Positions 742-22,441 of a stretch of 44,337 nt of DNA are shown in pieces. This DNA comes from a virus. The notes under the pieces are model-generated. The model was not told where the DNA came from. It did no database searches and saw nothing but the letters and a program-made list of their open reading frames with translations. The first letter of the stretch is position 1, and each line of letters begins with the position of its first letter. The stretch spans positions 1 to 44,337 of IMG/VR virus record IMGVR_UViG_3300031565_000088. One strand, 5' to 3'. The position numbers and the translations under genes were made by a program.

Positions 742-819
742 TCAGTGGAATCTTATCTCATCATTCGTTACATTACAAATGATGATTATTAATGCTAATA
801 TGGAAATTAAGATATTCAT
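742..819 (-). CDS. 25-residue membrane peptide
   Basis: A short frame begins MNILISILALIIIICNVTND and is almost entirely one hydrophobic segment. Its ATG overlaps the TGA of the sialidase-like gene in an ATGA arrangement (816-819), which suggests translational coupling and argues that it is a real gene. A tiny hydrophobic peptide next to the coiled-coil membrane protein could take part in lysis. There is no family match that I can name, and so short a frame could be fortuitous. Confidence 0.45.
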   Translation of the reverse strand: MNILISILALIIIICNVTNDEIRFH

Positions 820-2522: not shown

Positions 2523-2523
2523 A

Positions 2524-4326
2524 TCATTGAGTTGTTAGTCTGTTTCCATTTTCTAAAAAAAACTGTTTTCCGGTTATCTCGTCAAATAAGTAAGTAAAGG
2601 AAATCATCGTAAACTGAAGAGTTGATCCGTAAGCTGTTCCAATAATATTTGTAGCGTAAGCCCTCACGAAGTAAGTCTGTCCTGCTGTAAGATCAGTCAT
2701 TGAACTCGAATAAGCCCCTTCTCCTGTTCCGTCAGTTGTAAAGTCATCATCCAGTGTTGGCGTTCCGGATGTAGTCCAGCAGATTCCCTTTGCTGTTACC
2801 GCATTACCTTCATCAGAATCAACTATACAGCTTACACTTGCTGACAGCGTAGGGAAAGAAACTGTTGCTGAAAGTGTCCTGACAATAGGTACAGGAGGCT
2901 CCGTTCCATTGTACGCTACCGCACCGGCTTCTATCGTAATCCTAACATCACCATAATAGTCATAATTAACACCCAGACCCACTCCTGCATCAATAGCATT
3001 AGATGTAGCTTGCAAATGATTATCTGTTGGAGATTCAAACTCAGGATTGTCACTTAATGAATGAACATCATCTCCTGTTGCTTCCGTCCACTGTGCTAAA
3101 GTAGTATAAACAGAACTCCCTACCTTTGCAACTGCACTGACGTCATATATGTTGTAATCGTAATCATAATTCGTGTACCCCCCCGTTAATTGATGATAAT
3201 GACCATACTCGGTGGCATCACTGAATATATTATTTTTTATGTAACAGTTAGTATAAGTCGGATACTGATTACCTGTTTTTAAATGCACCCCGTAGGGTAC
3301 TCTATACCTTTGGTCGTGCGCCCATCCCTCCCCTGCAAACTTGCAAGTATTATGACGGAATATTAACGCATTGACTGTTGACCCCGTTGCTGTCCCATGA
3401 GAGTATTCAAAACTGTACTCACATTTTTCAATTATATTATTTTGAACAATAAAATTATCTACTGTTGCCGTGGAAGTTCCGTAATATTGTGGAGTAATAC
3501 CCGCCTCGAAACAATTACTTACATGATTTTGTTCTATAAGTATATCAGAACAATCACGATAAAATTCTATCCCATTACCTAACCGAGTGGCGAATACATC
3601 TACCGTACCGTGCGAGGTTAATCCTCCGCCTATATACGATACATCACAATTTCTTATTGTAACTCCCACTGCCCCGGATAAACTCTCAATGCCCGTGCGA
3701 CCCCCATATCTTACGTCTAATCCGTCTATTGTGATATAAGAATAACCATTGTTTCTAATGACGTCCCCGCCCAACGCAACCTCAATGTCAGAGTAGAACG
3801 TAGCGGGATTACCCACAGAGTAGAGAGTTATCCAATGACTTGTATTATGCCATTTCCATTCACCTTGAGCGGAGGGGGTGGTGATAAAAACCCTAACCCC
3901 TGTACTAGCTTCGCTATCAAATATTATATTACCGGGGCCATACTGATAATCAAAAGAAGCATCCGAGTTTCTCCAAAGATTACCTCCCTGATCAACCCAA
4001 TCATCAGTAGAATTTTCTTCTATACTACCCAAGATTAAAGGCTTTGCACCAGTACCGTAACTGCCATAATATATTTCATTTCCTATGGATGTGCCATCGA
4101 GTGTCATTGGCGCTCCCGGTGCGGGACGAAAGGAAGAGCCACACTTAAAAAATACAGAATCACCAGCGACAAATGCTGTTGAATTAAATTTTACTAAGGT
4201 TTGCCATGCCTGTGCATCAGAATGACCATCATTCCCATTATCACCATCCTCTTTAAAATAATAGTTAGTAGCAGGATAACTAACGGATGTAATAAACCAG
4301 AATAGTATAATTAATAGTTTCCTCAT
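2524..4326 (-). CDS. Right-handed beta-helix spike-like protein with signal peptide
   Basis: The 600-residue protein starts with a hydrophobic leader (MRKLLIILFWFITSVSYPA) that looks like a Sec signal peptide. Residues 22-100 (GNDGHSDAQAWQTL, GDSVFFKCG, GNEIYYGSYG) match the opening seen in Bacteroidota right-handed beta-helix proteins. Parallel beta-helix coils follow to about residue 400 (repeated I-x-I-x-N-x-V/I). Residues 480-580 form a fibronectin-III-like domain (LTAGQTYFVRAYATN). A polysaccharide-binding or depolymerase spike is the best reading. The leader is odd for a virion protein, which normally assembles in the cytoplasm; an exported product is the alternative. Confidence 0.75.
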   Translation of the reverse strand: MRKLLIILFWFITSVSYPATNYYFKEDGDNGNDGHSDAQAWQTLVKFNSTAFVAGDSVFFKCGSSFRPAPGAPMTLDGTSIGNEIYYGSYGTGAKPLILGSIEENSTDDWVDQGGNLWRNSDASFDYQYGPGNIIFDSEASTGVRVFITTPSAQGEWKWHNTSHWITLYSVGNPATFYSDIEVALGGDVIRNNGYSYITIDGLDVRYGGRTGIESLSGAVGVTIRNCDVSYIGGGLTSHGTVDVFATRLGNGIEFYRDCSDILIEQNHVSNCFEAGITPQYYGTSTATVDNFIVQNNIIEKCEYSFEYSHGTATGSTVNALIFRHNTCKFAGEGWAHDQRYRVPYGVHLKTGNQYPTYTNCYIKNNIFSDATEYGHYHQLTGGYTNYDYDYNIYDVSAVAKVGSSVYTTLAQWTEATGDDVHSLSDNPEFESPTDNHLQATSNAIDAGVGLGVNYDYYGDVRITIEAGAVAYNGTEPPVPIVRTLSATVSFPTLSASVSCIVDSDEGNAVTAKGICWTTSGTPTLDDDFTTDGTGEGAYSSSMTDLTAGQTYFVRAYATNIIGTAYGSTLQFTMISFTYLFDEITGKQFFLENGNRLTTQ

Positions 4327-4344
4327 CTTTTCATTTATATTTTC

Positions 4345-6681
4345 TTATGGATTAATTTTTATCCATCCTCCTCTTACTGCCTCAAATGCTTTATATAAAT
4401 CCTTATTTGTTAAATCTAAAAATTCTTGTCCCACAAATTCGGGAGTATTATAATTTGCCGTATCCCCCGCAAAAGTTCTTATTAATATTGATCTTGCAGC
4501 ATCAGGAACATCGGGGATTAATTGAGTTGCCCCACTAAAAACTTTAAATAGAGTTGGGCTACCTGCATCGTCAACTGATATACTGTCAGTATTTGCTATA
4601 AAAGGGCTTGCCAAATCACCAACTTTTAAACCGTCGGTTATAATTCCATTGTAGAAAATCGGTGCATTCAAATCAGCTTTCCCGGCAATTATTTCATCTA
4701 TATTACTTCGATTTATCTCTATCCATCTGTCTGCTGATGCGTAATATTTCAAAGTGATACATTCATATTGCCCTAAAACACAAGTTATATCATCTTGAAG
4801 AGCCAATCCAGTGCCATCCTCTAAAGTTAAAGTATAACTTGCATTAAAATTCCATATTCTGATTGTTTGTCCATTAAATCCATCAGCAATTTGTGGATCG
4901 GCTGTTATGTCTATCGAAGCAGTGCCAGTAAAGAATATCTCAGGATAAAACATTGATGCAGTAATCCCAGCAGTAGTTATAGTTGCAGAAACAGGTTTTA
5001 TCATCACTTCTCCTAAGTAATCAACAGCAGAATATAAATCAGTACTTACATCTCCGGCTGTATATAAAAATCCTTCCGATATATCAACTTTAACATCTGA
5101 GCGTGGCCTGTATAATTGAACATTATAGACAACCGTACCACCTGCTTTATAGTAGAAATTTTTGCCAATAGTAGTATTATATAATGTATAATAATTAGTA
5201 CCTCCATTAACTACGTGTTTTATTAAAGCATCAAGAGTAGCATCAACTCCACCATCGTTAATATAATTACCTTCTATCACAATGCCCCCTATTGAAAAAC
5301 CAGACTGAGCAACTAAATAAATCTGTGCTGAGTCGTTTTCTTCAAAATAATTACCGCTTATCATTGCTGAATGCGTATTGGAAAATGTATCAGACGATCC
5401 TATCTGTAACCCACTTCCAAGATTAGACTCTATTGTGTTACCTCTCAGATTCAATCCATCAGCACCAGACCATTTAACACCATCATCCCCGTTTGCCCTT
5501 ATAATACAATCAGTTATTGATAAGGCATTTGCATTACTCGCCTGTCCATCGCTAATGTGTACAGCATGAATACCATCATAGAGATTATGAGAGATATGGC
5601 AGGATTCAAATATATTACCCCATCCCTCAGTTGTTATATCAATCCCATGCCCTCCATTGTTAAATATATAGAGATTTCTAAAATAGGTGTAATTTACATT
5701 ATCCAGAACAATAGCGCCTAACCCGCTCGCACCAACTCCATAATTACCTCCGGTACCTTTAAAATGTAAATCTTCAATATTACAATAACCCATGTCCGAT
5801 AATTCAAGTGTTGCTGTTGTTCCTGTATTATATATCTGAGAAGCAAATCCCTCACCTTTAAGATTTATTCCATACCCATTACCATCGCCCGTTGCTGTCA
5901 ACGTTGCAGTAGTCTTATATCGCCCAGCAGGGAAATAAACTGTTGCTCTGTATGTCATTGCACTTGCCGCATCTAAACAGGCTTGTATTTCTTCTGTGTC
6001 ATCATTAGACGCATCGCCTTTTGCCCCATATGCAGGATCAGTAACATTAAATATTTTAGTTCGTGCATGAAGCGAATCGGCAAAATCAGCACTATTTAAC
6101 TTTAAATTATCTGCTGTTGTGGCAAAAGCTGTTGTGGCTATCTGGGTTGTATTAATTCCTGGGGCTGCCGTTGGTGCCGTAGGCACTCCTGTCAATGCGG
6201 GACTTTCTGAAAATACTATATTAGTCGTAGTCGTCCCTGTGGTGCCTGTTGCTGCATTAAGAAGGTTTAATCGTACCCCGGTAGTTGTTACCAATGTTAT
6301 TCCAATATAAAATGGGGATGGTATTGTTGGGGTTCCTGTAAATGTAGGGTCTGCAAGATCAGCCTTTAAATTATCCGCAGTGGTAGTAAACGCCGTTGTA
6401 GCAATTTGTGTTGTACTCGTTCCTGCTATTGCCGTAGGTGCTACCGGAATACCCGTAAACGTCGGAGAAGTAAACATAGTAGTCTTACTTTCATTCGTGA
6501 CATTATTAAGATACTGAAATAAATGTAATTTATCAATTTTACGTGTATTGCCACTCTGTACCAGAATAAGCAAATCAGCATCATTTATGCTTGTAGTTGA
6601 CGGAAGATCAGATATCTTGATCTGTGCAACCACTCCGATGGTTAGCATTATCGTAGTCAGAAATAATATTAATTTTTTCAT
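4345..6681 (-). CDS. Tail spike with pectate-lyase-3-type beta-helix and signal peptide
   Basis: The protein has 778 residues. Residues 1-20 form a signal peptide (MKKLILFLTTIMLTIGVVAQ). Residues 21-52 carry the ISDLPSTTSINDADLLILVQ pattern that I associate with N-termini of Bacteroidota phage fibres. Residues 72-120 and 158-196 contain the repeated TTQIATTAF tail-fibre module. From about residue 207 (FNVTDPAYGAKGDASNDDTE) the Pectate_lyase_3 domain begins, with beta-helix coils to about 520. The C-terminus (QEFLDLTNKDLYKAFEA) is a small domain. The probable role is recognition and cleavage of host capsule. The start overlaps the stop of the 52-residue upstream gene by ATGA, so expression is coupled to the head operon. 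Confidence 0.82.
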   Translation of the reverse strand: MKKLILFLTTIMLTIGVVAQIKISDLPSTTSINDADLLILVQSGNTRKIDKLHLFQYLNNVTNESKTTMFTSPTFTGIPVAPTAIAGTSTTQIATTAFTTTADNLKADLADPTFTGTPTIPSPFYIGITLVTTTGVRLNLLNAATGTTGTTTTNIVFSESPALTGVPTAPTAAPGINTTQIATTAFATTADNLKLNSADFADSLHARTKIFNVTDPAYGAKGDASNDDTEEIQACLDAASAMTYRATVYFPAGRYKTTATLTATGDGNGYGINLKGEGFASQIYNTGTTATLELSDMGYCNIEDLHFKGTGGNYGVGASGLGAIVLDNVNYTYFRNLYIFNNGGHGIDITTEGWGNIFESCHISHNLYDGIHAVHISDGQASNANALSITDCIIRANGDDGVKWSGADGLNLRGNTIESNLGSGLQIGSSDTFSNTHSAMISGNYFEENDSAQIYLVAQSGFSIGGIVIEGNYINDGGVDATLDALIKHVVNGGTNYYTLYNTTIGKNFYYKAGGTVVYNVQLYRPRSDVKVDISEGFLYTAGDVSTDLYSAVDYLGEVMIKPVSATITTAGITASMFYPEIFFTGTASIDITADPQIADGFNGQTIRIWNFNASYTLTLEDGTGLALQDDITCVLGQYECITLKYYASADRWIEINRSNIDEIIAGKADLNAPIFYNGIITDGLKVGDLASPFIANTDSISVDDAGSPTLFKVFSGATQLIPDVPDAARSILIRTFAGDTANYNTPEFVGQEFLDLTNKDLYKAFEAVRGGWIKINP
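6094..6468 (-). repeat. Repeated TTQIATTAF fibre modules within the spike gene
   Basis: Two modules of about 40 codons (6349-6468 and 6094-6210) encode the pattern P-T/A-F/L-T-G-x-P ... T-T-Q-I-A-T-T-A-F ... T-A-D-N-L-K, with a half copy between them. Such modules are common in phage tail collar and fibre stalks. They probably form a trimeric stalk linking the N-terminal anchor to the beta-helix. Confidence 0.7.
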
Positions 6682-9918: not shown

Positions 9919-11010
9919 TTAAATCCCAACCTGAACCAGTCTGTCATCAATAATCTTTGCATCAAATGCATCTCTCGCCTCGATTCGATTGATGCGGCTT
10001 CTTTGATCGTAGAATGAATTTATATTATCAAAGAGTCCGTTGCATTCCATTCCGACATTCAGATTAGAAACTGTTGTATAAACTACCCGATGAGGATTAT
10101 TCCAGACAGTACCATTATTTTCATACGCCTTAATCCATTGATCCCATAAAGGAATTGATATAATCTTTATTCCATCCCATTTGGCAAATTCTAGTCCATT
10201 GAGCATCAGTGTATAATCCTGGAATACTGTTCCAAGAGCCTGAAGCTGTCTGCGGATACGATCCATTATTGATTTAGTAACCAGTAAAATCCTGTCGGGC
10301 TGAGCTGCCAGTTCGGGAATTGCTGAATCAATAACCAGGTTCAAAGCGGTATAAGTCAAAAGAGGTGTGGCAACTGAGTTCTGCAAAGCATAAGTAAGTT
10401 GTGTGTTACCCGGCATGGCTGTCAGTTTGGTAGTATCAGCAGCGTAGATAACGGCCAGTTGCTGAAAGAATCCGTTTATGATATTGAAAAATCCAACATC
10501 GTAACCATCGGTTATCACACCACCGGCATTAACATTGGCTGCGGCTGTATTACCAAACCATACGTGACGAAGCAGCATCTTTTCGATGTCTTTTGTCAGT
10601 ATGTCGAGTATAAAAGCAAACACCTCGGTATTGGTGAGGTCAAATGCTGCGACTCCGCATCTTTCGGCAAGTTTCATAAGAGTGTCATCAAGTTCATTCT
10701 TACACATATCGATTATGATCTCAATAACTTTAGGCTCCCATGTCTTCTGTATGGCAATGTTTTCATAGCACTGTGCTGTCGGGTTACAGTCCTGTCCTGC
10801 TTTACCGACCAGACCAAAGGTACCGGGTATGATCCCGATGTGGCGGTCATTCTTTATTCCTGTCACAAGCGTATGGAACGCTGACAGTGCCGGTGCTTCT
10901 AACACGGCTGTTACGACGAGTTCATTCAGCGAACGAAGTTCATCGGCGGTGAATGTTAGTGCGTCTAAATTAATGGTGCTTGCGCACGCTGGGCTTGCTC
11001 CTGCTGGCAT
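9919..11010 (-). CDS. Major capsid protein (HK97-fold type)
   Basis: The 363-residue protein directly follows the protease-scaffold gene, as expected for a capsid protein. It has an early helical region (residues 15-60), a middle with paired helices and hydrophobic spine residues (DTLMKLAERCGVAAFDLTNT; ILDILTKDIEKMLLRHVWFG), and a C-terminal beta region (GLEFAKWDGIKIISIPLWDQ) that suits the P and A domains of the HK97 fold. No delta domain is expected because the scaffold is fused to the protease upstream. Confidence 0.82.
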   Translation of the reverse strand: MPAGASPACASTINLDALTFTADELRSLNELVVTAVLEAPALSAFHTLVTGIKNDRHIGIIPGTFGLVGKAGQDCNPTAQCYENIAIQKTWEPKVIEIIIDMCKNELDDTLMKLAERCGVAAFDLTNTEVFAFILDILTKDIEKMLLRHVWFGNTAAANVNAGGVITDGYDVGFFNIINGFFQQLAVIYAADTTKLTAMPGNTQLTYALQNSVATPLLTYTALNLVIDSAIPELAAQPDRILLVTKSIMDRIRRQLQALGTVFQDYTLMLNGLEFAKWDGIKIISIPLWDQWIKAYENNGTVWNNPHRVVYTTVSNLNVGMECNGLFDNINSFYDQRSRINRIEARDAFDAKIIDDRLVQVGI

Positions 11011-11012
11011 AA

Positions 11013-12125
11013 TTATTTATTTTTAAGTGTTATGATTTCTTCCACCCTGTCCAGATCAATCCTTCCGGATTTATTAGTAGATGAGAATTTTTTTCTCACT
11101 TCGGGCTTCCATGAGTTTTTGAGGTTTGTAAGCTCAGTAACCAATCCGGAGGCTTTTGCCTTCATAGTCTCTGCCTCTTCTTTGGCTGTTTCAGCAATTT
11201 GAACTTTAATACTACCTTCTTCAAGTTTCGCTGTAAGAAGAGCGATCTTCTCATTGGCTAAGTCAAGTTCAGTTTTTTCTGCTTCTTTAACCTCTGTAAC
11301 TTCACCACCGGCAATTACAACAGTCTTTCCGTCGGCCATCGTAAATGAGCCATCCGGGGAAGCCTTGTCACCAACTGCTGGCGCACCAGATTCTTTATCA
11401 AGTTTAAATTCCTTACCATCCCTGTCCTTTAAGGTCTGATCGGTAATTCTTGATAGTCCAAGAGCTGTTATCGTTTTAGTGACGGCAGCCTCAACTTTGT
11501 CCATAAATGTTTTGTCGTCCATCTTTTTTATTAATTTATTTGGTTTCATAAATGCATACGCCACTATCGGCTCAAGTATCTTCGTTGCAAATCCCAGCGA
11601 AAGCATATCTTCGGCAGATAACTTAGTATCTTCCTTCATATACTCTGCAAGTTTTGCTACATCTGCTCCAGTTTGCTTGACATAGAAATCAAGTATTTTA
11701 GCTTCTTCCTGTCTCAATGACTCAGCGATCAATTCAAGATCCGCAGCCTCGTATTTATCTGCAAGGGTGTATTCCGGAATAAAAGGATTATGGATCAGAC
11801 CATCGGCATTTTTCATAAACTCACGCTCTGACCCGGCAAGAAAAACAATGGTAGCAATAGAATAAACTTTACCCTCGCCTATTGTCTTTATCTTTTTTCC
11901 TGAATTACTAAGTAGATCATAAATAGCCCAACCCTCCTGAACGTCACCACCACGTGAATTAATCTTTACCGTGATGTTGGTCGCGTCTTTATGCTCGTCA
12001 AGAAAATCAGAAACTGCTTTGGATGATATAGTTTCATCAGAGACATCGAACATCTCAAGCATCTTATCTGGTTCGCCAATATCTCCGTATATTTTTAAAA
12101 CTGCTTCGTTCATATCATTCCGCAT
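11013..12125 (-). CDS. ClpP-like prohead protease fused to scaffold domain
   Basis: Residues 1-190 are a ClpP/S14-type serine protease: NSRGGDVQEG (residues 56-65, oxyanion loop), the putative nucleophile Ser89 in GKVYSIATIVFLAG, and His112 in LIHNP. Residues 200-370 form a charged, coiled-coil-rich region (EKIALLTAKLEEGSIKVQIA; ETAKEEAETMKAKASGLVTE) typical of a scaffold that is digested during maturation. One polypeptide thus provides protease and scaffold, as known in several siphophages. The gene starts just inside the end of a 43-residue frame and is followed 2 bases later by the capsid gene. Confidence 0.86.
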   Translation of the reverse strand: MRNDMNEAVLKIYGDIGEPDKMLEMFDVSDETISSKAVSDFLDEHKDATNITVKINSRGGDVQEGWAIYDLLSNSGKKIKTIGEGKVYSIATIVFLAGSEREFMKNADGLIHNPFIPEYTLADKYEAADLELIAESLRQEEAKILDFYVKQTGADVAKLAEYMKEDTKLSAEDMLSLGFATKILEPIVAYAFMKPNKLIKKMDDKTFMDKVEAAVTKTITALGLSRITDQTLKDRDGKEFKLDKESGAPAVGDKASPDGSFTMADGKTVVIAGGEVTEVKEAEKTELDLANEKIALLTAKLEEGSIKVQIAETAKEEAETMKAKASGLVTELTNLKNSWKPEVRKKFSSTNKSGRIDLDRVEEIITLKNK

Positions 12126-12361: not shown

Positions 12362-13195
12362 CTATTTTGGAATAGGGAACGCTTCTGAATTAATGCTATA
12401 GCTTAATGTCCTTATTGAAATTTTCCCATCCCTAAAATAATTCCATGTTTTAAATATTAAAGCTGTCTTATAAGATGCTGTCATGGTTATTTTATTATTA
12501 ATTTTAAAAAATGTTAATTTATCTCTTAACAATTTAATTGGATGTTTAGGCATCAATCCAATGCCCTGCCCAAGTAAATCCATAAATTTAAAAGCTTCAT
12601 TTTCATTTATATCATTCAAAAATGCAAATAATGATAGAAAAGCAGATTGAGATAAAATATGCAAAGATTTTCTATACCAATCAGCAGCCATCATATTGGC
12701 ATTGTGCCAAAATTCGGGTCTCTTTTGATATATATTTAATACTTCTTGATTAGATAATCTTGCTCTAAATTTATCTCCTGCTCCACCACCTGATTGATCT
12801 AATCCGATTCTACCCACTTTAAAAAGATAATATTTCTTAATACCAGCAGCAATCTTTGTAGAATCTGGAATGTTGGCAATCTCCAATAAGTCGCCAGCAC
12901 CTCTTGATCTTCCGGTATCTATAACAGTAAATACATCATCCTCTAATTCTGAAATTATAAGAAACTCTAAACTCATATTTGAATGAATTAATGCTTCTAA
13001 TCTATGTTGTCCATCTAATAAAGTACCATTTTCTGATATTTTAATAGCTTCTCCTGTACATTCTTTCCATAATCCTGAAGACATTTGTCTTGAGTATTCG
13101 GAAATCATTAATGGGCTCAATTTGCGATTAATATTATTCCTTTCCAATAATTCTTTCGCAATCTTTGATGTAATCAATTTAATTTCTGTTTTCAT
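12362..13195 (-). CDS. ParB/Srx-type N-terminal domain protein
   Basis: The 277-residue protein carries DGQHR at residues 61-65 within an N-terminal ParB-like fold (KLSPLMISEYSRQMSSGLWK before it, then FTVIDTGRSRGAGDLLEIAN). This phage version lacks a recognisable ParB DNA-binding centre; the rest is helical. Such proteins in phages are of uncertain role (DNA binding, CTP or ATP use, or regulation). It stands alone between a consensus promoter with a 155-base leader and its own terminator, unlike every other gene in the genome, which suggests independent control. Confidence 0.75.
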   Translation of the reverse strand: MKTEIKLITSKIAKELLERNNINRKLSPLMISEYSRQMSSGLWKECTGEAIKISENGTLLDGQHRLEALIHSNMSLEFLIISELEDDVFTVIDTGRSRGAGDLLEIANIPDSTKIAAGIKKYYLFKVGRIGLDQSGGGAGDKFRARLSNQEVLNIYQKRPEFWHNANMMAADWYRKSLHILSQSAFLSLFAFLNDINENEAFKFMDLLGQGIGLMPKHPIKLLRDKLTFFKINNKITMTASYKTALIFKTWNYFRDGKISIRTLSYSINSEAFPIPK

Positions 13196-13355: not shown

Positions 13356-13385
13356 CAAAGATAAGCAATATTTTTAATAAACAAA
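13356..13385 (-). promoter_or_regulatory. Consensus Bacteroidota promoter of the ParB-like gene
   Basis: The minus strand reads TTTG (13385-13382), 18 bases, TATCTTTG (13363-13356). Both boxes match the Bacteroidota sigma-ABfr consensus. Transcription would start near 13349 and run through leader A into the ParB-like gene. Confidence 0.82.
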
Positions 13386-13392: not shown

Positions 13393-13908
13393 CTATAAAT
13401 CTTTCAAGATACCTTCGCCGAAAATAACTAATTTACATCCCTCGTTTTCCAGTGCTTTCTTTAAGTGCTGAAAATGCAGCTTAATTTTATCACATAAATC
13501 TCTTGTCAGGTGAGGGTGATTGATCATATCAACCCCAAAGACATGGATCTCGGTTGCCCGGTAATACTTATATGCCACCTGACAGGCCACAAATGGCGAA
13601 CAGTACGACTTATAAATCTGTGGAATACCAAGATTAACCTCCCGATCAGGGTAATGAGGTGTAAGATCAAGTATTTGAAAGCCCGGCATGTGCGACCAGT
13701 TTGCTATCTGTGAGTAAAAGGATTTTGGTTTACTGTTTTCGATAGTCATCAACCGCTCCCCGGCAAAGATACTATGCTTATCCAAACATACTATTGCGTC
13801 CGTATGATGATACTTCCAAATATCATTTACCCCAATTGAAAAACCATATTCCTGTGGGTTATATAAACTAAGCGAAGGACCAAGTCCCAATACTGCTATC
13901 GTTCCCAT
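13393..13908 (-). CDS. Rossmann-like DUF115/MptE-type protein of the glycan island
   Basis: The 171-residue protein opens with a glycine-rich Rossmann-like motif (MGTIAVLGLGPSLSLYNPQE), then IGVNDIW near residue 25, and a later strand IHVFGVDM near residue 122. This pattern recalls DUF115 / 6-HMPPK MptE-like proteins, a group that includes flagellin glycosylation (Maf-type) enzymes and small phage proteins in sugar clusters. It is the last gene of the glycan island and overlaps the preceding glycosyltransferase by 13 bases. A role in sugar transfer is suggested by neighbours only. Confidence 0.6.
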   Translation of the reverse strand: MGTIAVLGLGPSLSLYNPQEYGFSIGVNDIWKYHHTDAIVCLDKHSIFAGERLMTIENSKPKSFYSQIANWSHMPGFQILDLTPHYPDREVNLGIPQIYKSYCSPFVACQVAYKYYRATEIHVFGVDMINHPHLTRDLCDKIKLHFQHLKKALENEGCKLVIFGEGILKDL

Positions 13909-14603
13909 TGACCTTCTATTTCCGGGAATCCCTTGTTTCTTCTTATTGTTCTTGTACCTGCCGGATGATGCTCGATGTACTCACGTGGCTCACCTGTCCA
14001 CACCCAGCCCTTACCTGACGAGTGACCAAGCCCCGGAAATTCTTTTATTATCTTACCGGTTAATCCCCTGCGGTGAATATCCAGAGCCGCTTTAAAGCAT
14101 GGCGCACCGTGATGGACATAAGGATGATACTTAAAATAATTCCTAACGTTAAGAAGATGAAAGTAAGGATGAAGCATATACATAAAACCCTCGTTCTTAT
14201 GATGAGGCTTTGCACCATATTCAAAACCATCGTAGCCTGTTTTTTCCAGATAGCCAATTCCATAAGTATCTTCCTCCATTAAGTTTAACATCTTTTCTAC
14301 CGGGCTTTTATGAAACACCACATCAGAATCAAAGATCAAAGCAAACCGTGTCTTTACCATTCTTATTGCGGCATCCATCCCCCGGCCATGTCCTATATTA
14401 TATCCATACACCCCGACGGTTGTAATGTCAGAAGCCAGTGAACATACATACGAACAGCATGGATCATTCGAATTAGAACCGTCAAAAATTATCATCTGCA
14501 TATCAGGATGAAATTTCCTGAATGTATCATATGCCATTTCCATTAATAATTTAGTATTACTACATACTACGACCGCCGTAATATCGCTCATAGAGTTTTG
14601 CAT
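13896..14603 (-). CDS. Glycosyltransferase, GT-A fold (family 2-like)
   Basis: The 235-residue protein has a GT-A core: an N-terminal strand ITAVVVCSNT, the segment GYNIGHGRGMDAAIRMVKTR and a DxD motif FDSDV with Asp92 and Asp94 for metal and nucleotide-sugar binding. The C-terminal half is aromatic and His-rich (KHHPY-like HPYVHHGAP). It should transfer a sugar from an activated donor; the acceptor is unknown. The start could be residue 1 or Met5; either way it overlaps the previous gene. Confidence 0.75.
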   Translation of the reverse strand: MQNSMSDITAVVVCSNTKLLMEMAYDTFRKFHPDMQMIIFDGSNSNDPCCSYVCSLASDITTVGVYGYNIGHGRGMDAAIRMVKTRFALIFDSDVVFHKSPVEKMLNLMEEDTYGIGYLEKTGYDGFEYGAKPHHKNEGFMYMLHPYFHLLNVRNYFKYHPYVHHGAPCFKAALDIHRRGLTGKIIKEFPGLGHSSGKGWVWTGEPREYIEHHPAGTRTIRRNKGFPEIEGQWER

Positions 14604-15294
14604 CTTCTCCTATTATTGATGTTAAAAAATTCAAGTTCGGGTCTGGCCGCATACCTGTCATTCGTATATGTCCTGCACCAATACCAGGTCGTCCGGCAAT
14701 ACCTTTTATTCCAATAGCAAGATTATTAGATGAAAACAGATTTACCCTATCACTACCAAGTAACGAATAGAACCGTGCATCGATAAATTTATCCATATAG
14801 CAACGTCTAAAAATTGGTACGACATCCATCGTGAAAGCTGTCTGAAACAAGCTGGAATGTTGAAAATTACCATTAGCAGCATAACGCCGAAAATAAACAT
14901 TGTAGTATAATGTGTTCGTTTCACCGATAACACGAAAACCACTAAAGCGTTTCATCATCTCGGTAAGATATTCCGGGCGGTAGTAATCATCATCCTCGAT
15001 TATAAAGATAGCTTCAATATCAGAGTCAAGAAAATTCTCATAAATCTTATTTATCCCTACTGATAAATTTCTCCCCTGTGTGTTAAATCCTGGTTGCCAT
15101 TGTGGTTTTGGGAATGTCTTTATCGTAGTCCAGTTTTCTCGGAAATTATCAGGAATAATGTCTGAGGTAATCGGTGTGCAGTCATCAACAACAACCCATA
15201 CCACATCACCGATATAATTTTGTCGTTTCATCATTGCAGCACACATTATTAATTGTGATCTCCGGCTACCGGTAGGCGTTATCAGGGCAATCAT
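14560..15294 (-). CDS. Glycosyltransferase family 2-like
   Basis: The 244-residue protein begins MIALITPTGSRRSQLIMCAA, as in family 2 enzymes of the GT-A fold. It has VVDDCTP at 36-42, GRNLSVG at 74-80 (donor binding) and an acidic metal-binding cluster EDDDYY at 100-105. It overlaps the exostosin-like gene stop by 1 base and the next gene by 44 bases. Confidence 0.78.
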   Translation of the reverse strand: MIALITPTGSRRSQLIMCAAMMKRQNYIGDVVWVVVDDCTPITSDIIPDNFRENWTTIKTFPKPQWQPGFNTQGRNLSVGINKIYENFLDSDIEAIFIIEDDDYYRPEYLTEMMKRFSGFRVIGETNTLYYNVYFRRYAANGNFQHSSLFQTAFTMDVVPIFRRCYMDKFIDARFYSLLGSDRVNLFSSNNLAIGIKGIAGRPGIGAGHIRMTGMRPDPNLNFLTSIIGEDAKLYERYYGGRSM

Positions 15295-16109
15295 TAAGTA
15301 TTTTTTATTTTATTTTTCCAATACTCAAAAGTAAGTTTTTCCATATTCCAAGTCTGCCACGAACTGCCAGCAAGCCACCGTTCAAGATATTCTTCTGTAA
15401 TTTCTTCCCAATCATCTACAAAGCAAATAGGTAAATCGGTATAAAACTGGTTATTAATATTTCGTTTCTCAATAGGTATGGTCCCCATATAAAGACATTC
15501 CCATGTCCTTACTGTATCAAGCCCTGTTCCTCGTGGAGAAATAACAAATCTATGATTATAGATATTCTCTAAATACCAATCAAAATCCATTCCATTCTTG
15601 CCCCTTACAGATGTTACCCATGATTTGCCCTCAAATAGTTCATACGGCTTTAATCGTTCACTGGGGCAATTTATTACATTATGATTCATATACATAAGAT
15701 TCCGATAATTGCGGGGCTTCCCCATTTTTGCAATCATTTTATCTTTTTTATGACTTTCTGCCTGCCAATGATCATTTTCAATACCAAGTGGAATTGAATC
15801 AATCCTGTGATTTATAACATTCAGATTTTCTGCATACCATCTTATAACATTATCAGGCAAATCAAATGAGTCGTCAACATGATTATCGCAATTATGAGTT
15901 ATAAGAATAACCTTTTGTTTGTCTCTTATAACATCAAGAAGTTGTCGCTTATAATGTGTAAACCCCTGAGCATAAATAATATCCCCATCTTTCAGTAAGT
16001 TTAAATCAAGAGTATTACGATAGCCAATATAATCACAAGGAGCCATGTCCTGTGGGGTATATGTATAATCAGCTATTGTCTGAAATTTTTCGCCTTGTAT
16101 CCAGTCCAT
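15294..16109 (-). CDS. Exostosin-like (GT47-type) glycosyltransferase
   Basis: The 271-residue protein contains, at residues 188-212, FVISPRGTGLDTVRTWECLY followed by MGTIPI, which closely follows the C-terminal nucleotide-sugar-binding pattern of exostosin-like enzymes (SPRGxGxDTxRxWExLxxGxIP). The N-terminal half would be the acceptor domain. No membrane segment is seen, so it should be cytoplasmic. It is the only GT-B candidate of the island. Confidence 0.75.
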   Translation of the reverse strand: MDWIQGEKFQTIADYTYTPQDMAPCDYIGYRNTLDLNLLKDGDIIYAQGFTHYKRQLLDVIRDKQKVILITHNCDNHVDDSFDLPDNVIRWYAENLNVINHRIDSIPLGIENDHWQAESHKKDKMIAKMGKPRNYRNLMYMNHNVINCPSERLKPYELFEGKSWVTSVRGKNGMDFDWYLENIYNHRFVISPRGTGLDTVRTWECLYMGTIPIEKRNINNQFYTDLPICFVDDWEEITEEYLERWLAGSSWQTWNMEKLTFEYWKNKIKNT

Positions 16110-16261
16110 TGATTAAATATATTTATAATATATCCTAAAATAGGGGTTGCCCCCGTTAATCTTATTCCTTTGTCATAATAGTGGCAATCCTCACATTCTA
16201 TCTTTGTCATGCCCGAAGTATTGACTTCAGTGCAACCAAAATTTTGATATGGACATTTCAT
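16073..16261 (-). CDS. Small Cys-rich protein in the glycan island
   Basis: The 62-residue frame has a cysteine set CPYQNFGC ... CEDC (residues 3-28) that could bind one metal ion or iron-sulphur centre, followed by a hydrophobic stretch (ATPILGYIINIF). Its ATG overlaps the dehydratase stop by ATGA. It overlaps the next gene by 37 bases, more than usual here. A real gene is probable; function unknown. Confidence 0.55.
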   Translation of the reverse strand: MKCPYQNFGCTEVNTSGMTKIECEDCHYYDKGIRLTGATPILGYIINIFNQWTGYKAKNFRQ

Positions 16262-17232
16262 AACCAGCCTCCCATTTTTAGTAAATTAGTTAAATAATCT
16301 TTGTTTTGTATATTATCTTCTGAGGTTAAGTGATCAATACCTGCGGAAGGAAGATCCGTGTATTGCCTTCCTGTATCTATCTCAGGTCTGATGACATAGT
16401 AATCATCATTAACCCACCTTGCTCTGTATGATTCATGTTGTGTTATTAATACCTCATGTAACTTTTCGCCTTCACGTATTCCTATTTTTTCAATCTTCGT
16501 ATCTGAAAACCCATAAAAATTAACTAATATAGAAACAAGATCAATAACCTTAAAACTCGGCATATTCATAATATATGTCTCCCCACCTATCCCTTGCTCT
16601 GTTGCATAAAACATTAATTTAATGGCCTGCGGAAGCGTTAGAAAGAACCTGGTCATTCTGTCATCTGTTACCTTTACTTTGTTTGTTGTCTTGATCTGAT
16701 CAATCACATAAGGCACTAAAGAGCCATTTGTACCTAATACATTGCCGCTACGAATACATATAAACTCAGTGTCTTTTGTTAAGCAATTAGCTTGTATAGT
16801 TAATTTCTCCCCTATTGCCTTTGTGTTGCCGTAAAGACTAAAAGGGTCTGCTGCCTTATCTGTTGATACATCAATAAATTTTTTTACTTTGTAGCGAATG
16901 GCAGAATCAATTATATTTATCATGCCTATTATATTTGTCTTAATAGCCTCTAATGGCTGGTTTTCACAAATAGGGACGTGCTTTAATGCTGCCAGTTGAA
17001 ATACATAATCCACTCCCTGCATGACATTGTTAACGGCTTCCTTATCTCTTATATCGCCAATCACATATTTTATAATCAGATTATTAAAATTACGATTCAT
17101 ATCCACCTGCGAAATTTCCCCTCGTGAAAATATTATTATCTGTTTTGGATTTTTTTCTAAAAGTTGTCTCGCCAATTCACGGCCCCAACTGCCGCTACCA
17201 CCAGTAATAAGTATTATTTTATTTTTAAACAT
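16258..17232 (-). CDS. UDP-GlcNAc 4,6-dehydratase-like enzyme (CapD/PseB type)
   Basis: The 324-residue protein is a single-domain extended SDR enzyme. It has the NAD(P) motif TGGSGSWG (residues 10-17) and GDIRD at 59-63. STDKA (123-127) supplies Asp125 and Lys126, and Tyr134 with Lys138 forms YxxxK. The Asp-Lys plus Tyr eight residues later matches the PseB/FlaA1 active site. These enzymes convert UDP-GlcNAc to a 4-keto-6-deoxy sugar nucleotide, the first step to pseudaminic acid, FucNAc or QuiNAc sugars. Next-step enzymes (aminotransferase, epimerase) are not visible here, so the host may supply them. It overlaps the GT32 gene by 8 bases. Confidence 0.85.
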   Translation of the reverse strand: MFKNKIILITGGSGSWGRELARQLLEKNPKQIIIFSRGEISQVDMNRNFNNLIIKYVIGDIRDKEAVNNVMQGVDYVFQLAALKHVPICENQPLEAIKTNIIGMINIIDSAIRYKVKKFIDVSTDKAADPFSLYGNTKAIGEKLTIQANCLTKDTEFICIRSGNVLGTNGSLVPYVIDQIKTTNKVKVTDDRMTRFFLTLPQAIKLMFYATEQGIGGETYIMNMPSFKVIDLVSILVNFYGFSDTKIEKIGIREGEKLHEVLITQHESYRARWVNDDYYVIRPEIDTGRQYTDLPSAGIDHLTSEDNIQNKDYLTNLLKMGGWL

Positions 17233-18055
17233 AAGATATATTTTTTAATAATCTTCCCAATACATTATCAGGCAAATTCGTTGTTCCTCCTTTTGTGTAT
17301 TTTAAAAAATGGCCACACTCTTGCGAAGCAGCATACCAATGAATGCCTATTGAATCATCTGTAAATCTTGATTGTGAATTATTTCCATAAGAGACTATCA
17401 TCTGATAGCAATCGTGGGCATAAACAGCCTCCATGCCTATGTCTAATGCAGGAGAAAATGCATTTATTGACTCTAATGTAGGGTAATGATTATTACAAAG
17501 AGTTGGCCCTAAGCAAAGATAATCATTTGCATTAAATCCTTTTATTGATAGTGAGGCCATCTTTTCAAAAAACTTACTTCCTTTTGCGCTCAGGAAAAAC
17601 CCATTTGAATGACCATACCAGCAAATACAGACAAATGTTTCTATGTCTTTATTTTCAGGTTTATTAACTTTTAACCCGGTAATGGGTTTGAAGAATAAAA
17701 TATCCATATCAGACCACACCCCACCATAAGTAGTTAAAAGATGGTACCTGAGAAAATCAGATTTATGTACCTCTGACATAGTATTTCTAAATCCAAAATC
17801 TTCAAAATCAATAGCATTTTTTCCTATTGGCAACCCCATTAACATAGGTGTAAAATCTTCACAATCTAATTTATAATCAAGAGGTTTCGTTTCCCATGTT
17901 ACAATAGTGCCGGGGTGTTTTGGATACCAAAACATAACTTGCCAATCAGGATTTAATTTCATAAAGGTATCAATAGTCTTATACCTGAGAAAAGGTAATA
18001 TACTACCGCCCCAATAAACATGAAGTATCTTTGGTATGTTTAAATGCCATTCCAT
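17225..18055 (-). CDS. GT32-type (OCH1-like, DXD) glycosyltransferase
   Basis: The 276-residue protein starts with IPKILHVYWGG (7-17) and carries KSDFLRYHLLTTYGGVWSDM (98-117), the Gly_transf_sug signature with the DXD pair Asp116 and Asp118. Family members transfer hexoses or hexosamines. Its start shares one base with the stop of the methyltransferase gene (TAATG). Confidence 0.82.
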   Translation of the reverse strand: MEWHLNIPKILHVYWGGSILPFLRYKTIDTFMKLNPDWQVMFWYPKHPGTIVTWETKPLDYKLDCEDFTPMLMGLPIGKNAIDFEDFGFRNTMSEVHKSDFLRYHLLTTYGGVWSDMDILFFKPITGLKVNKPENKDIETFVCICWYGHSNGFFLSAKGSKFFEKMASLSIKGFNANDYLCLGPTLCNNHYPTLESINAFSPALDIGMEAVYAHDCYQMIVSYGNNSQSRFTDDSIGIHWYAASQECGHFLKYTKGGTTNLPDNVLGRLLKNISYV

Positions 18056-18693
18056 TATTTTTTAATTAATTTCATCCATTGTATATAAGGATATTTAACC
18101 GCATAATTTTCTATATGTAATTTTATTATTCTATTTAATAATCTAATTCCTTTATCTATTCTCTTTTTGATCATTACCGAGGCCCATGTAAATGGTGTTG
18201 AAAGATAATAAGTATTATATCCTTTAATATCAATAAGATCATATCCATAATATACTCTTGTTTCTGGTTCGGAATCATGACATATTATCAAATCAAACTT
18301 ATTACCAATATTATTAATCGATAATATTCGGCCAGCTAAGAACTGATCAACAAATAATAAATTAGGTTTAATATCAGGCAATTCAATCCCTTCATAAAAT
18401 AAAATAATATCTCGTTTTTCCTCTTTTGATAACTCTGTAACGTGATTATTTATATTATAATCACCTAAGGGATGAAATATAATATCTGAATTAATATTCT
18501 CTTTAACATAATTTAACCATTCTAAATTAGTCTCGACACTTATTATTTTTGCATCATATTGCTTTAAAATAGAAGTTGAATATAACCCTGATCCCAGCTC
18601 CAATACATATCCTGGCATATATAATTCCATCACAGCCTTTGTGAGAGGTTCGTGAGTACTTGACATCCATCCAAAATCATTATTTATTTCCAT
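18055..18693 (-). CDS. SAM-dependent methyltransferase-like protein of the glycan island
   Basis: The 212-residue protein has motif I VLELGSGLYST at residues 30-40 and a motif II-like acidic strand end (IISVETN), as in class I methyltransferases. Later LIICHDSEPETR fits a catalytic strand. The C-terminus is basic and possibly amphipathic (KRIDKGIRLLNRIIKLHI). In this context it could methylate a sugar or a glycan end, but substrate is not readable from sequence. Confidence 0.65.
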   Translation of the reverse strand: MEINNDFGWMSSTHEPLTKAVMELYMPGYVLELGSGLYSTSILKQYDAKIISVETNLEWLNYVKENINSDIIFHPLGDYNINNHVTELSKEEKRDIILFYEGIELPDIKPNLLFVDQFLAGRILSINNIGNKFDLIICHDSEPETRVYYGYDLIDIKGYNTYYLSTPFTWASVMIKKRIDKGIRLLNRIIKLHIENYAVKYPYIQWMKLIKK

Positions 18694-19453
18694 CTAAATT
18701 AGGTGTTGATAAATGCATTGCCCTGTAATTTTTTGTCTTTACTAATTCCTGATAAAGTATCCTATTCCGTTCCCATAACAAACCTTTATCACCAGCCGCC
18801 TGACAATTATAATGCCATTGATGCACTACAAAAGGATCCGTTGTAATCTCTATTTTTAGTCCAAGACTTTTTATCTGATGTATTAAATAATCATCATCAT
18901 AAGCCCGCCCAAATAAAAACCGTTCATCAAAGCCATTTGTCTTAATAAGATTTTTAGTTGTTATGGCAGTACAAAAATGAAAACCAACCGGGCAATGAAC
19001 AGGATGATTATACCAGGCATTTTGTCCATCCCATGTCACTCCATAATTATTTTCATTTATTACTTTATTTAAATCATATTCTGAGGAACTTGTTTTTTCA
19101 TTTATACTGAAACATCCAAAAGAAATATATGTCTCATCCGTTATCTTAGTGGCATAATCCAGTACATCGCCGACATGATAACATTCTGGATTCTGTATAA
19201 TAATAATATCCGGGTTTCTCTTTAAGGCACTAAGAAAACCTACGTTATAAACAAGTGCCGAATTAAACCATGACTTATTAGATAATTTTAAGATTATCAC
19301 TTCAAAGGGTAATGGAGGGATAATCAAATCTTTTGGGCTGCAATCATCAACTATTATCACATTAAAATCTTTTTGCTTTGAATTAGTCATAGATATTAAT
19401 GTTTTATCTAATTGCGCTTGCCTGTCAAAATAGGCCATTACTATTGTTATCAT
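18680..19453 (-). CDS. Glycosyltransferase family 2-like
   Basis: I choose the ATG at 19451-19453 (MITIVMAYFDRQAQLDKTLI), right after the previous stop, instead of an upstream in-frame start inside that gene. It has a GT-A N-terminus with VDDCSP and a later FGRAYDDDYLIHQI (catalytic Asp region). The usual DxD is replaced by NPEC, so metal binding may differ from its neighbours. It ends 14 bases inside the methyltransferase gene. Confidence 0.75.
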   Translation of the reverse strand: MITIVMAYFDRQAQLDKTLISMTNSKQKDFNVIIVDDCSPKDLIIPPLPFEVIILKLSNKSWFNSALVYNVGFLSALKRNPDIIIIQNPECYHVGDVLDYATKITDETYISFGCFSINEKTSSSEYDLNKVINENNYGVTWDGQNAWYNHPVHCPVGFHFCTAITTKNLIKTNGFDERFLFGRAYDDDYLIHQIKSLGLKIEITTDPFVVHQWHYNCQAAGDKGLLWERNRILYQELVKTKNYRAMHLSTPNLDGNK

Positions 19454-19455
19454 AA

Positions 19456-20067
19456 TTAAAAATCGTATATATATGGTACATGACAAACATAATACTGTGG
19501 CGTTGGGATCTTCGCGCTGGGATATTTCTTTAAATAATCATTAATAAATGCCCAATCATGCTCGTAGTGATTACCCCATACGGCTCCAATGCTTCTTTTA
19601 TGAGCTATGCAACTCGTTCCTATGTAGAGATGGATAGGTCTGACGCCGCGTTCTAATATATTTAAATGCTCATTTACTACAATATAGTCATTATAATAAA
19701 CCCAATCTACTGCGGTAGTATCAAAATTATCACTTATGATCTGAAGATGTTTCACACCAAATATATCATCAGCATCCAAATAACAGATTAATTCCCCTTC
19801 TGCAATTTCCATTCCTTGCTGTCTTACCTTACCCGAAAATAGCTCCTGCTTTGATATCATTTCAAATTTTATTTTATTATTGTCTGCAAAGTGTTCGGCC
19901 CAAATACCTTTTGCTTTCTCACATCCATCGGATATTATAATTAACTCTGAATCTTTGAACTCTTGTAGTAAATACGTATCAACTGCGCGCTTAAATTTAT
20001 ATTCCGGATTAGCACCTCTTGTCGGGTAGTCACCTAAATACACCGGCATGATAACTGAAAATCTCAT
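19456..20067 (-). CDS. Glycosyltransferase family 2
   Basis: The 203-residue protein is a clear GT-A enzyme: MRFSVIMPVYLGDY at the start, SDGCEKAKG (46-54), KVRQQGMEIAEGELICYLDA (80-99) with the DxD pair Asp98 and Asp100. It is short and lacks membrane segments. Its ATG overlaps the stop of the 79-residue gene by ATGA, which in turn is ATGA-coupled to the tape measure gene, so it should be translated with tail proteins. Confidence 0.82.
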   Translation of the reverse strand: MRFSVIMPVYLGDYPTRGANPEYKFKRAVDTYLLQEFKDSELIIISDGCEKAKGIWAEHFADNNKIKFEMISKQELFSGKVRQQGMEIAEGELICYLDADDIFGVKHLQIISDNFDTTAVDWVYYNDYIVVNEHLNILERGVRPIHLYIGTSCIAHKRSIGAVWGNHYEHDWAFINDYLKKYPSAKIPTPQYYVCHVPYIYDF

Positions 20068-20303
20068 AACTCTGCCTCCATACTTCTAATAACATTTAAT
20101 ATCGTATTGTCATGCAGTCGGTAATCTTCAGCTACAAATCCAATAGATATATATTTTTTATAACCCTGTTTACGGTAATAATCATAACGGCAGTACAGTT
20201 CAAAGTGACGGATTATTGATGCAGGCAATATTCCAAGTTTGACCTGTTCTCTTATTCCTTTTGGGTTAAGAATATTCTGGTTTATGTATTCAAACTTTGT
20301 CAT
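20064..20303 (-). CDS. 79-residue protein between tape measure and glycan genes
   Basis: The product (MTKFEYINQNILNPKGIREQ) is helical and basic-aromatic, with a region (residues 55-79, GFVAEDYRLHDNTILNVIRS) that could be a small helix-turn-helix. ATGA overlaps on both sides couple it to the tape measure and the first glycosyltransferase. Function unknown. Confidence 0.7.
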   Translation of the reverse strand: MTKFEYINQNILNPKGIREQVKLGILPASIIRHFELYCRYDYYRKQGYKKYISIGFVAEDYRLHDNTILNVIRSMEAEL

Positions 20304-22441
20304 ATATTAGCTCGTACCTCAACTTTATTCTTACTTGCTATCCTTGCGTTTATATCCTCTACGGTAACTATCGGGGCCGGTATATTTGCAAAGGCTGCCG
20401 CGATATCTGATGCTGTCAGTAGATTGCCTTGTGGTGCTGCGTTTAGTTGCGTCTGTGTTAACTGTGGTTGTGTAACAAATGATGGTGCCACCTGTGATGC
20501 AAATGTTCGTTGTGCTGCCGGAGATGATGATATGGATGTCGGCCCTCTGCTTGAATCACCTGGCAAGCCAGACTTAACAGATATGATCTTTTTAACATTG
20601 GCCAGACCTGTTGCTATCGCTGCGGCCATAGCTATATAGCTGAATGGAGGAGGATAAGTTGCCAGTGCTTTTGTTGCTGCTGCATAGGTATCTATTGTCG
20701 CTGATGCTACTGCTGCTACCTTACCTATTGCTGTACTCTCGCCAAATATAATGGCAATATTTCCGGCAAAATCTCTATATAACGATAACTTATTATCGGC
20801 CTCTGCTTTCGCTATCTCTGTTCTGTATACTGCATACTTCTTATCAATAACATTAATATCGGCCCCGATCTTATTTGCTGCTTTAATTTCTTCCTCATAT
20901 TGTATTTGTAGCCTATCGCGTTGGATAGCAAATATATTCTCATTTTGCAACTCTCTTAATTGCAGTTCATTTTCCTGATTAAGCAAGGCTGCCTCCTGTT
21001 CCATTTGATATTGAGTTGCCAATTCATTCATTCGATCAACACCGGCTTTCTCTCTTTCCTTCCGCTTTTTCTCATTAGCTTTCTTGATAGCCTCAATTTC
21101 TTTATCTAATATATCCTGTGATGTTTTTGCTGCTGTCTCTTTGGCTTTTAATTCTGATTCTATTGCCTTTTTTTCTTCCGTGGTAAGTTTATTAATTAAT
21201 GTAAGCCTTTCTGTTAACATTCGTTTCTGCGCTTTTAATCCTGCTGCTGTTATTTCTACTGCTGATGCCTGTAATTCTTCATTCTTTCTCAATTCCTCAC
21301 GTGTTGAATTACCCATATCTGTTTCTAATTGTGATATTCTTGCCCTTTCATTTGCAAATTCAACCTCTTTTGCGGTTAATTGTTCCTGTAATGCAATAGC
21401 TTCATTAATAGATGCTAATCTTTCTTTATCTGTGAGCAGTTCATCTTGTACTGCATTTCTTTTTTCCTGTATCTCTCTCGTTAATCTTGCCTTTGTAGTG
21501 ATGAAAGCAATCTCTGCATCTTCTAATGCTTGTGTATCTTTTTTTAATTGTCTTGCTGCTGCTGATTCTTCTTTAATTTCCTCAAATATTCCTTTTTTAT
21601 TGGCGCGACGTAATTCCCTTTTCTCCCTGCGGCTCATCGTTTCTTCAATACCTATCAATTCATCATTTAATTCTTTTGCAGCCTTGCGGGACTCACGAAG
21701 TTCTTTTGAAAATAGATTACCAAGAAACTCAGCAGCGTTACTTATCCGATCTATCAGGACTTTAATAGTTGCATTTACTCCGGCAACCGTAGCATCCCAT
21801 ATATCCATCAATACCTGTGAATTTTTAAATCCCTTCGCAAGTAAGGCAAAAGCTCCGATAATAGCTGTTATAATTAAGACAATAGGATTAGCAAGCAATA
21901 TCTTACTATATCTTGAAACAGCATTTGCCGCTATCCCTATCGGTCCGGGGATAGCGGCAAACTGAGCCGCCGATCCTTCAATGGCTTCACTGTATAACCC
22001 GACTGATGATCTACCATCACCCTGTGCTTTATCATATTGGATTATTGCATCCTTCGTGGCTTTAATCTTTTTTGTCTGCTCAACATACAAAGGATTCAAC
22101 CTCATTATCCCTTCTGCATCTTTTATATAAGCATTGCCAAGTTTACCAAGAGCCTTCTGTTGTAAGCTCAGGACTTCACCTAATTGCTTACGGCTTCCTG
22201 TCTCTGATTTAGTTGCTGCTGTGAATGTCTGAACCTCTTTTTGTGCATCTCTGTATATTTTCTCTGCTGCTTTGAGTGCAGCGTTATTCTTTTCAACTTC
22301 CTCGCGCGGGGTGTCTTTCGACATCTGCTTGTTAGCCAGCTTCAGCTTATCGACCTCCTCTTTTGCCTTTACGGCAGCATCAATATATTCACCAAGATTA
22401 TGCTTTACATTTACCAAATATGTCTTTTTCTCGTCTGCCAT
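20300..22441 (-). CDS. Tail tape measure protein
   Basis: The 713-residue protein has long coiled-coil segments (about 15-75 and 240-500, with many Glu, Lys and Ala), a hydrophobic segment at 181-204 (ILLANPIVLIITAIIGAFAL) and a second Ala/Ile-rich one near 565-605, as in tape measure proteins. With about 0.15 nm per residue the tail would be near 107 nm. The C-terminal 100 residues are Gln/Ala/Pro-rich. It follows a large baseplate-like gene after 2 bases and ends in an ATGA overlap. Confidence 0.85.
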   Translation of the reverse strand: MADEKKTYLVNVKHNLGEYIDAAVKAKEEVDKLKLANKQMSKDTPREEVEKNNAALKAAEKIYRDAQKEVQTFTAATKSETGSRKQLGEVLSLQQKALGKLGNAYIKDAEGIMRLNPLYVEQTKKIKATKDAIIQYDKAQGDGRSSVGLYSEAIEGSAAQFAAIPGPIGIAANAVSRYSKILLANPIVLIITAIIGAFALLAKGFKNSQVLMDIWDATVAGVNATIKVLIDRISNAAEFLGNLFSKELRESRKAAKELNDELIGIEETMSRREKRELRRANKKGIFEEIKEESAAARQLKKDTQALEDAEIAFITTKARLTREIQEKRNAVQDELLTDKERLASINEAIALQEQLTAKEVEFANERARISQLETDMGNSTREELRKNEELQASAVEITAAGLKAQKRMLTERLTLINKLTTEEKKAIESELKAKETAAKTSQDILDKEIEAIKKANEKKRKEREKAGVDRMNELATQYQMEQEAALLNQENELQLRELQNENIFAIQRDRLQIQYEEEIKAANKIGADINVIDKKYAVYRTEIAKAEADNKLSLYRDFAGNIAIIFGESTAIGKVAAVASATIDTYAAATKALATYPPPFSYIAMAAAIATGLANVKKIISVKSGLPGDSSRGPTSISSSPAAQRTFASQVAPSFVTQPQLTQTQLNAAPQGNLLTASDIAAAFANIPAPIVTVEDINARIASKNKVEVRANI

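Follow-up and report, generated by a model that had tools for sequence, protein, structure and literature searches.

A polymorphic glycan-synthesis island between the tail and head modules

The IMG/VR virus record IMGVR_UViG_3300031565_000088, analyzed here as a whole stretch of 44,337 bases (the window), carries at 13393-20067 an island of ten head-to-tail genes on the minus strand, which encode one UDP-GlcNAc 4,6-dehydratase, six likely GT-A-type glycosyltransferases (GTs), a methyltransferase-like protein, a 62-aa protein, and a protein with the Maf/GT42/MptE fold. We regard this island as probably a serotype-like, polymorphic locus for the cytoplasmic glycosylation of a virion protein, in which a conserved core is combined with a shuffled middle. 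Conserved core enzymes and variable outer enzymes are to be expected if the former recognize an acceptor that is itself conserved and the latter determine the sugar. Glycosylation of the virion is favored because core genes occupy positions on the capsid side in several phage groups, because the locus lies in the structural block and encodes no flippase- or polymerase-like protein, and because the fold of one core protein is that of Maf, which glycosylates a protein subunit before export. A broader generalization, about which we are slightly more doubtful than convinced, is that this is a widespread glycan-serotype locus of Bacteroidota phages, in which a Maf-like/GT2 core attaches the glycan and an exchanged middle, swapped between otherwise unrelated phages, sets the outer sugars, with methyl and, in another group, possibly sulfate groups.

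Relatives were gathered by scans with the tape measure protein, the dehydratase, and the three core proteins, here termed c1, c2, and c3, which yielded about 165 viral loci, or about 110 once overlaps were removed. The window's own group, defined by common structural genes, comprises 53 loci including the window, and the 24 contigs holding both island borders are referred to as complete islands. The gene order in this group is tail genes, tape measure, a 79-aa gene, variable genes, c3, c2, c1, a ClpP-like protease, the putative capsid gene, genes 9278 and 8847 (genes are designated, where needed, by their lower coordinate in the window), and the portal. Both c1 and c3 are present in all 24 complete islands and c2 in 22 of them; the protease lies within four genes after c1 in 51 of 52 contigs, and the capsid gene directly follows the protease in 51 of 51. 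Junctions within the complete islands are mostly overlaps (137 of 171), typically of 4 bases.

Each island contains one to eight non-core genes drawn from at least 46 families; the 111 variable genes that encode at least 90 aa were sorted into 46 families, and half of these have a single representative. The families with Pfam names are mostly of sugar type: among the 101 variable genes scanned, matches included GT2 (21 genes), epimerases (9), a second GT2 type (8), and GT11 (3), as well as many methyltransferases, radical-SAM (5) and B12-binding (5) proteins, a C-methyltransferase, a DegT aminotransferase, and FkbM. Five islands each encode a protein of 367-376 aa (L007:15328-16449, L116:8174-9295, L026:7984-9114, L041:8014-9117, and L019:6448-7569); these proteins are possibly the radical-SAM/B12-binding members of this pool. 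Island content varies independently of capsid identity (Spearman coefficient, -0.09 over 276 pairs). The window has only 1 of 12 variable families in common with L019, the capsids being 92% identical, and 1 of 11 with L005, at 89% capsid identity. Such natural pairs, with capsids 89-92% identical and different cassettes, would make it possible to test what selects for virion glycans.

The high turnover, along with radical-SAM/B12 and other proteins that have no clear role in glycan synthesis, would also suit a tolerated site for cargo, at which sugar genes of assorted functions accumulate without a single glycan product. We consider such a site improbable, given that the core trio is found in nearly all members and evolves under purifying selection, and that the same core families recur on the capsid side in other phage groups. 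The median ratio of nonsynonymous to synonymous substitutions (dN/dS), for which few pairs were usable, is 0.11 for c1, 0.08 for c2, and 0.15 for c3, compared with 0.05 for the capsid protein; the core is thus more divergent than the capsid yet constrained. The possibility that the island genes are degenerate remnants was rejected on the basis of intact motifs and the core dN/dS near 0.1, and the original prediction, which had named degraded copies lacking active sites as its own counterevidence, passes on this point. Its central claim, a working multi-enzyme glycan locus in the late block, is well supported by the same observations and by the presence of the architecture in dozens of relatives.

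The conserved core

The last island gene, c1 (13393-13908), encodes a putative sugar transferase consisting of a single 171-aa domain. The AlphaFold model built from 50 homologues has a pLDDT of 95.1; a first model from five sequences (pLDDT 67), which gave ambiguous matches, was superseded by the 50-sequence alignment. The model matched the Magnetospirillum Maf flagellin glycosyltransferase (5mu5) with a Z score of 13.1 over 161 of 171 residues, the MptE-type HPPK of M. jannaschii (8sd5) with 11.3, and the sialyltransferase CstII (1ro7) with 10.3, whereas structures outside the Maf/GT42/MptE fold scored about 5. It was these Z scores from a second-look aligner alone that separated the fold from background, as Foldseek comparison of the model with the PDB gave no match with E below 0.05; Foldseek against viral models recovered MptE-like phage proteins, and PDB profile searches with c1 and c3 returned nothing significant. 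The Pfam family PF01973 did not match c1 of the window and gave weak matches to 7 of the 50 proteins in the c1 family (best E value, 0.002). The model makes the assignment of c1 to the Maf/GT42/MptE fold well supported and agrees with the DUF115/MptE-like protein initially proposed here; from the fold, we infer a sugar-transferase activity. Maf proteins consist of an N-terminal domain, a central Maf_flag10 domain (PF01973), which resembles CstII, and a C-terminal helical domain (PMC11339370), a three-domain architecture that was not found in c1. They act on flagellin while it is still in the cytoplasm, prior to its export and assembly (PMC4065374).

The other two core proteins resemble GT2 glycosyltransferases. 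For c2 (13896-14603), which carries a DSD motif, the Pfam GT2 match has an E value of 2.3e-8, PDB profile searches recovered TagF and other GTs, and D92 and D94 are invariant among 55 homologues. The more divergent c3 (14560-15294) itself has no Pfam match, but 27 of the 57 members of its family match GT2 (best E 6e-7), and D37, D38, and the EDDD motif (E100-D103) are invariant. Since these family matches add c3 to the list, the island contains six GT-A-type candidates rather than the five transferases originally counted, although the presence of transferases with recognizable motifs was correctly noted. In two islands, those of L005 (12815-13477) and L012, the variable part includes an additional, distant c2 copy with 26-27% identity, which suggests that core enzymes may also have been duplicated and diverged.

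Core genes on the capsid side in other phage groups

In three other groups of phages (groups 2-4), the capsid proteins show no BLAST similarity to that of the window. There, c3 or c2 lies downstream of the phage's own capsid gene and either precedes the head-tail connector genes or is interspersed with them in 18 of 18, 16 of 16, and 5 of 5 contigs, respectively; the capsid call in group 3 is tentative, relying on a sub-threshold match to Phage_capsid_4. Because these loci were fetched for carrying c2 or c3, the comparison tests the position of the genes and not their frequency. Groups 3 and 4 have tape measures in common and are not fully independent; at least two further groups show this placement. 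In group 2, c3 has a sulfotransferase-family gene as its immediate downstream neighbor in 19 of 19 contigs (e.g., L057:10702-11367), which suggests that these phages might make a sulfated glycan.

The association with structural genes bears on the main rival explanation, late remodeling of the host O-antigen, capsule, or another surface glycan, whereby receptors would be masked, progeny spared from binding to debris, and superinfection blocked. Phage serotype-conversion enzymes are well known, mixtures of GT2, GT32, epimerases, and methyltransferases resemble O-antigen or capsule cassettes, and the late β-helix and BNR proteins encoded in the window suit host glycans, indicating that such glycans matter to this phage. 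However, no multi-pass membrane protein was found in the 24 complete islands (at most one borderline segment per protein in a hydropathy scan), so that the islands give no sign of a flippase or polymerase. The position within the late structural block, with the core next to capsid genes in several phage groups, and the short time between late expression and lysis also argue against host-surface remodeling, which we therefore judge unlikely, if still the most serious competitor. The preference for a virion glycan in the original prediction thereby gains indirect support, from the core beside capsid genes and the absence of multi-pass proteins, short of proof.

Several observations weigh against virion glycosylation. 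A search of the structural proteins pointed to no clear acceptor and to no Ser/Thr-rich region that might serve as one, and soluble GTs can also act on host-made lipid-linked precursors. Furthermore, no c1 was detected in groups 2-4, so that attachment by a Maf-like enzyme cannot be a general feature. L002 and L003, the terminase of which is distantly related (29-30%), depart from the capsid-side position: their related cassette immediately precedes the terminase gene and does not adjoin a recognized capsid gene. Finally, the entire dataset consists of metagenomic contigs.

The dehydratase and the variable cassette of the window

The predicted UDP-GlcNAc 4,6-dehydratase of the PseB/FlaA1/CapE type (16258-17232) belongs to the variable cassette. 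It matches Pfam Polysacc_synt_2 with an E value of 4.2e-91 (305.6 bits; cut-off, 20.2) and, in PDB profile searches, FlaA1 of H. pylori (2gn4; E 2e-67) and CapE (2e-65). The Rossmann GGxGSxG motif is intact (GGSGSWG at position 11), as is the catalytic DK...Y...K set (STDKAADPFSLYGNTK at position 123), aligned to that of FlaA1. These matches and the catalytic set exclude chance as an explanation for the island genes and bear out the PseB-type enzyme with an Asp-Lys...Tyr set read from the sequence at the outset. Homologues with 62-73% identity are found in other phages (L002-L004). The full pseudaminic-type pathway that the name PseB might imply is, however, not encoded: Pfam scanning of the ten island genes revealed the first step alone, with no aminotransferase, acetyltransferase, or synthase of the PseC/H/I or equivalent Leg type.

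Upstream of the dehydratase gene, the first island gene encodes a GT2 glycosyltransferase (19456-20067; Pfam E 2e-8), the family of which occurs in 6 of 24 complete islands. It is followed by a GT2-like glycosyltransferase with a weak Pfam match (18680-19453; E 1.8e-4), which represents the commonest variable family (10 of 24), a methyltransferase-like protein (18055-18693) that lacks a Pfam match but displays by eye the S-adenosylmethionine (SAM)-type motif ELGSGLYST and has homologues in other islands, and a GT32-type glycosyltransferase with an SDMD motif (17225-18055; Pfam Gly_transf_sug, 4.5e-11). Downstream lie the open reading frame of the 62-aa Cys-rich protein (16073-16261), which had not figured in the original prediction and shows 60% identity, across 40 aa, with a portion of a larger L002 protein likewise adjoining PseB, and a GT47/exostosin-like putative transferase (15294-16109), the Pfam GT47 match of which (E 0.007) is below the curated cut-off.

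All open reading frames and overlaps first described are present on the minus strand. The tape measure gene overlaps the 79-aa gene by 4 bases, and the latter overlaps gene 19456 by 4 bases; the ATG of gene 18680, at 19453, follows a 2-base gap, the short gap originally reported. The remaining overlaps measure 14 (18680/18055), 1 (18055/17225), 8 (17225/16258), 4 (16258/16073), 37 (16073/15294), 1 (15294/14560), 44 (14560/13896), and 13 (13896/13393) bases.

The gene content also allows assessment of a further alternative, namely, that the transferases glycosylate bases of the phage DNA as protection against restriction. Phage GTs that hypermodify DNA do exist (Pyle 2024, as cited in PMC12619734). 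Nevertheless, Pfam scanning of the non-island genes of the window, covering the small early genes in part, detected no hydroxymethyl-pyrimidine or comparable base-modification pathway, and neither the location in the structural block nor a dehydratase and swappable sugar genes would be expected of such a system, making this explanation highly improbable.

The island as an insertion in Bacteroidota phages

The borders of the island are delineated by relatives in which the site is empty. In L176, most likely an integrated prophage because it resides on a 1.28-Mb contig, the order is tail gene, tape measure, protease, capsid, and portal, with no island, whereas in L178, a homologue of the 79-aa gene is flanked by a large tail gene and the protease gene, and just ~100 bases lie beyond it. 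These empty sites in related Bacteroidales prophages indicate that the island was inserted downstream of the 79-aa gene (20064-20303), which forms its upstream border; given its homologue in L178, this gene belongs to the phage backbone and not to the glycan system, and was rejected as the island start. Hence, coupling through the 79-aa gene, proposed from ATGA overlaps, holds insofar as 4-base overlaps exist on both sides, but the gene itself lies outside the island. By the same token, the description of the island as led by the tape measure gene was half right: it is an insertion between tail and head modules that is missing in related prophages.

The scan with the capsid protein found a single contig from a genome, L166, a phage contig with a full island in a Bacteroidales metagenome-assembled genome. 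Among 393 genomes of the same order, c1 occurs only in the L166 genome and the capsid family in 12; within this sample, the island is phage-specific and resides in phages of Bacteroidota. A nucleotide search with the island against 50,697 phage records gave zero matches, and thus no cultured relatives with the island were found. The window itself is probably a complete genome, because a 144-base direct repeat, with one mismatch, is common to its ends (1-144 and 44194-44337).

The flanking genes, also on the minus strand, are the tape measure gene upstream (20300-22441; PHROG tape measure, E 1.3e-7) and, on the other flank, beyond the features noted originally, a ClpP-like head protease (11013-12125; Pfam CLP_protease, 1.2e-24) and the putative major capsid protein (9919-11010; phrog_38780), for which position and conservation suggest the role. 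Just past c1, at 13356-13385 on the same strand, lies a Bacteroidota-type promoter-like element (TTTG-N-TAnnTTTG). Its -7 box is present in 34 of 51 c1-protease gaps, compared with a mean of 11.5 and a maximum of 17 in shuffled sequences, which fits a tail transcript ending at the island and head genes restarting; the full pattern is unenriched across the window (2 matches vs. 1.5 expected), so that the enrichment pertains only to the -7 box in these gaps. The only other match in the genome, at 43838-43870, is upstream of early genes. Between c1 and the protease, the window contains a PHROG 5931 gene (12362-13195) with a ParB-like DGQHRLEA motif recognized by eye, and most relatives have no gene at this site. 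Elsewhere, three consecutive large proteins (816-6681), one with BNR repeats and two β-helical, including a pectate-lyase-like tail fiber, are possible glycan-binding or depolymerizing tail spikes, and two early-region genes (32201-32728 and 38755-39231) with weak Methyltransf_23 and N6_N4_Mtase matches possibly function in DNA modification.

Proposed function and comparison with known systems

In the proposed scenario of virion glycosylation, a clade of tailed phages infecting Bacteroidota would have inserted the locus between the tail and head modules, where it is presumably expressed late. The dehydratase would convert host UDP-GlcNAc to an activated deoxy-sugar, the methyltransferase-like protein may decorate a sugar, and the soluble GTs would build an oligosaccharide in the cytoplasm on what we infer to be a protein of the virion, with subunits of the head or tail as the most likely acceptors. 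The c3-c2-c1 trio might perform acceptor-proximal steps, recognizing a conserved protein, or a common capping step, with the shuffled middle genes adding strain-specific sugars, such that near-identical capsids would bear different surface glycans. The presumed benefit would be evasion of recognition or altered adsorption.

Phage capsids are usually regarded as bare protein. If the proposed function is correct, the coating of virions with glycans is not rare, extends beyond actinobacterial phages, and differs between close relatives in the manner of bacterial serotypes, with effects on adhesion to cells, mucus, and soil particles, on recognition, and on virion typing. The loci would also be a source of many compact, soluble, phage-encoded enzymes for protein glycosylation. 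Our search of the open-licence literature turned up no earlier account of a swappable, capsid-side locus for glycans in phages of Bacteroidota.

Phage enzymes that glycosylate virions and capsid glycans encoded by viruses are themselves already known, from mycobacteriophages and chloroviruses, respectively. In mycobacteriophages, such as Che8 and Rita, capsids and tail tubes carry glycans made by phage enzymes (Freeman 2023, as cited in PMC11256854 and PMC12619734). The island resembles these systems in its phage-encoded GTs and, as proposed here, in a product attached to structural proteins. Those reports, however, deal with actinobacterial phages that encode a few GTs, located in Maravista toward the 3' end of its genome (PMC11256854), whereas the locus described here, in Bacteroidota phages and with a predicted glycan product, comprises ten genes in the window and has its own sugar-nucleotide enzyme, a conserved core and shuffled middle, and a site between tail and head genes. 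Chlorovirus PBCV-1 encodes sugar-nucleotide enzymes and GTs that decorate its major capsid protein, and its antigenic variants map to GTs (PMC9614988). Both kinds of enzymes are likewise encoded by the phage, but the chlorovirus is a eukaryotic algal virus and its glycan is N-linked. We know of no comparable shuffled operon adjoining a chlorovirus capsid gene. With bacterial Maf, c1 has in common the fold of the central Maf_flag10 domain (PF01973), but it lacks the flanking Maf domains, and the island has no genes for nonulosonic acid synthesis past the PseB-like step. Finally, gtrABC cassettes and O-antigen and capsule loci similarly combine conserved flanks with variable, horizontally exchanged sugar genes; the island differs from them in having no evident membrane flippase or polymerase and in being located within the block of genes for the phage virion.

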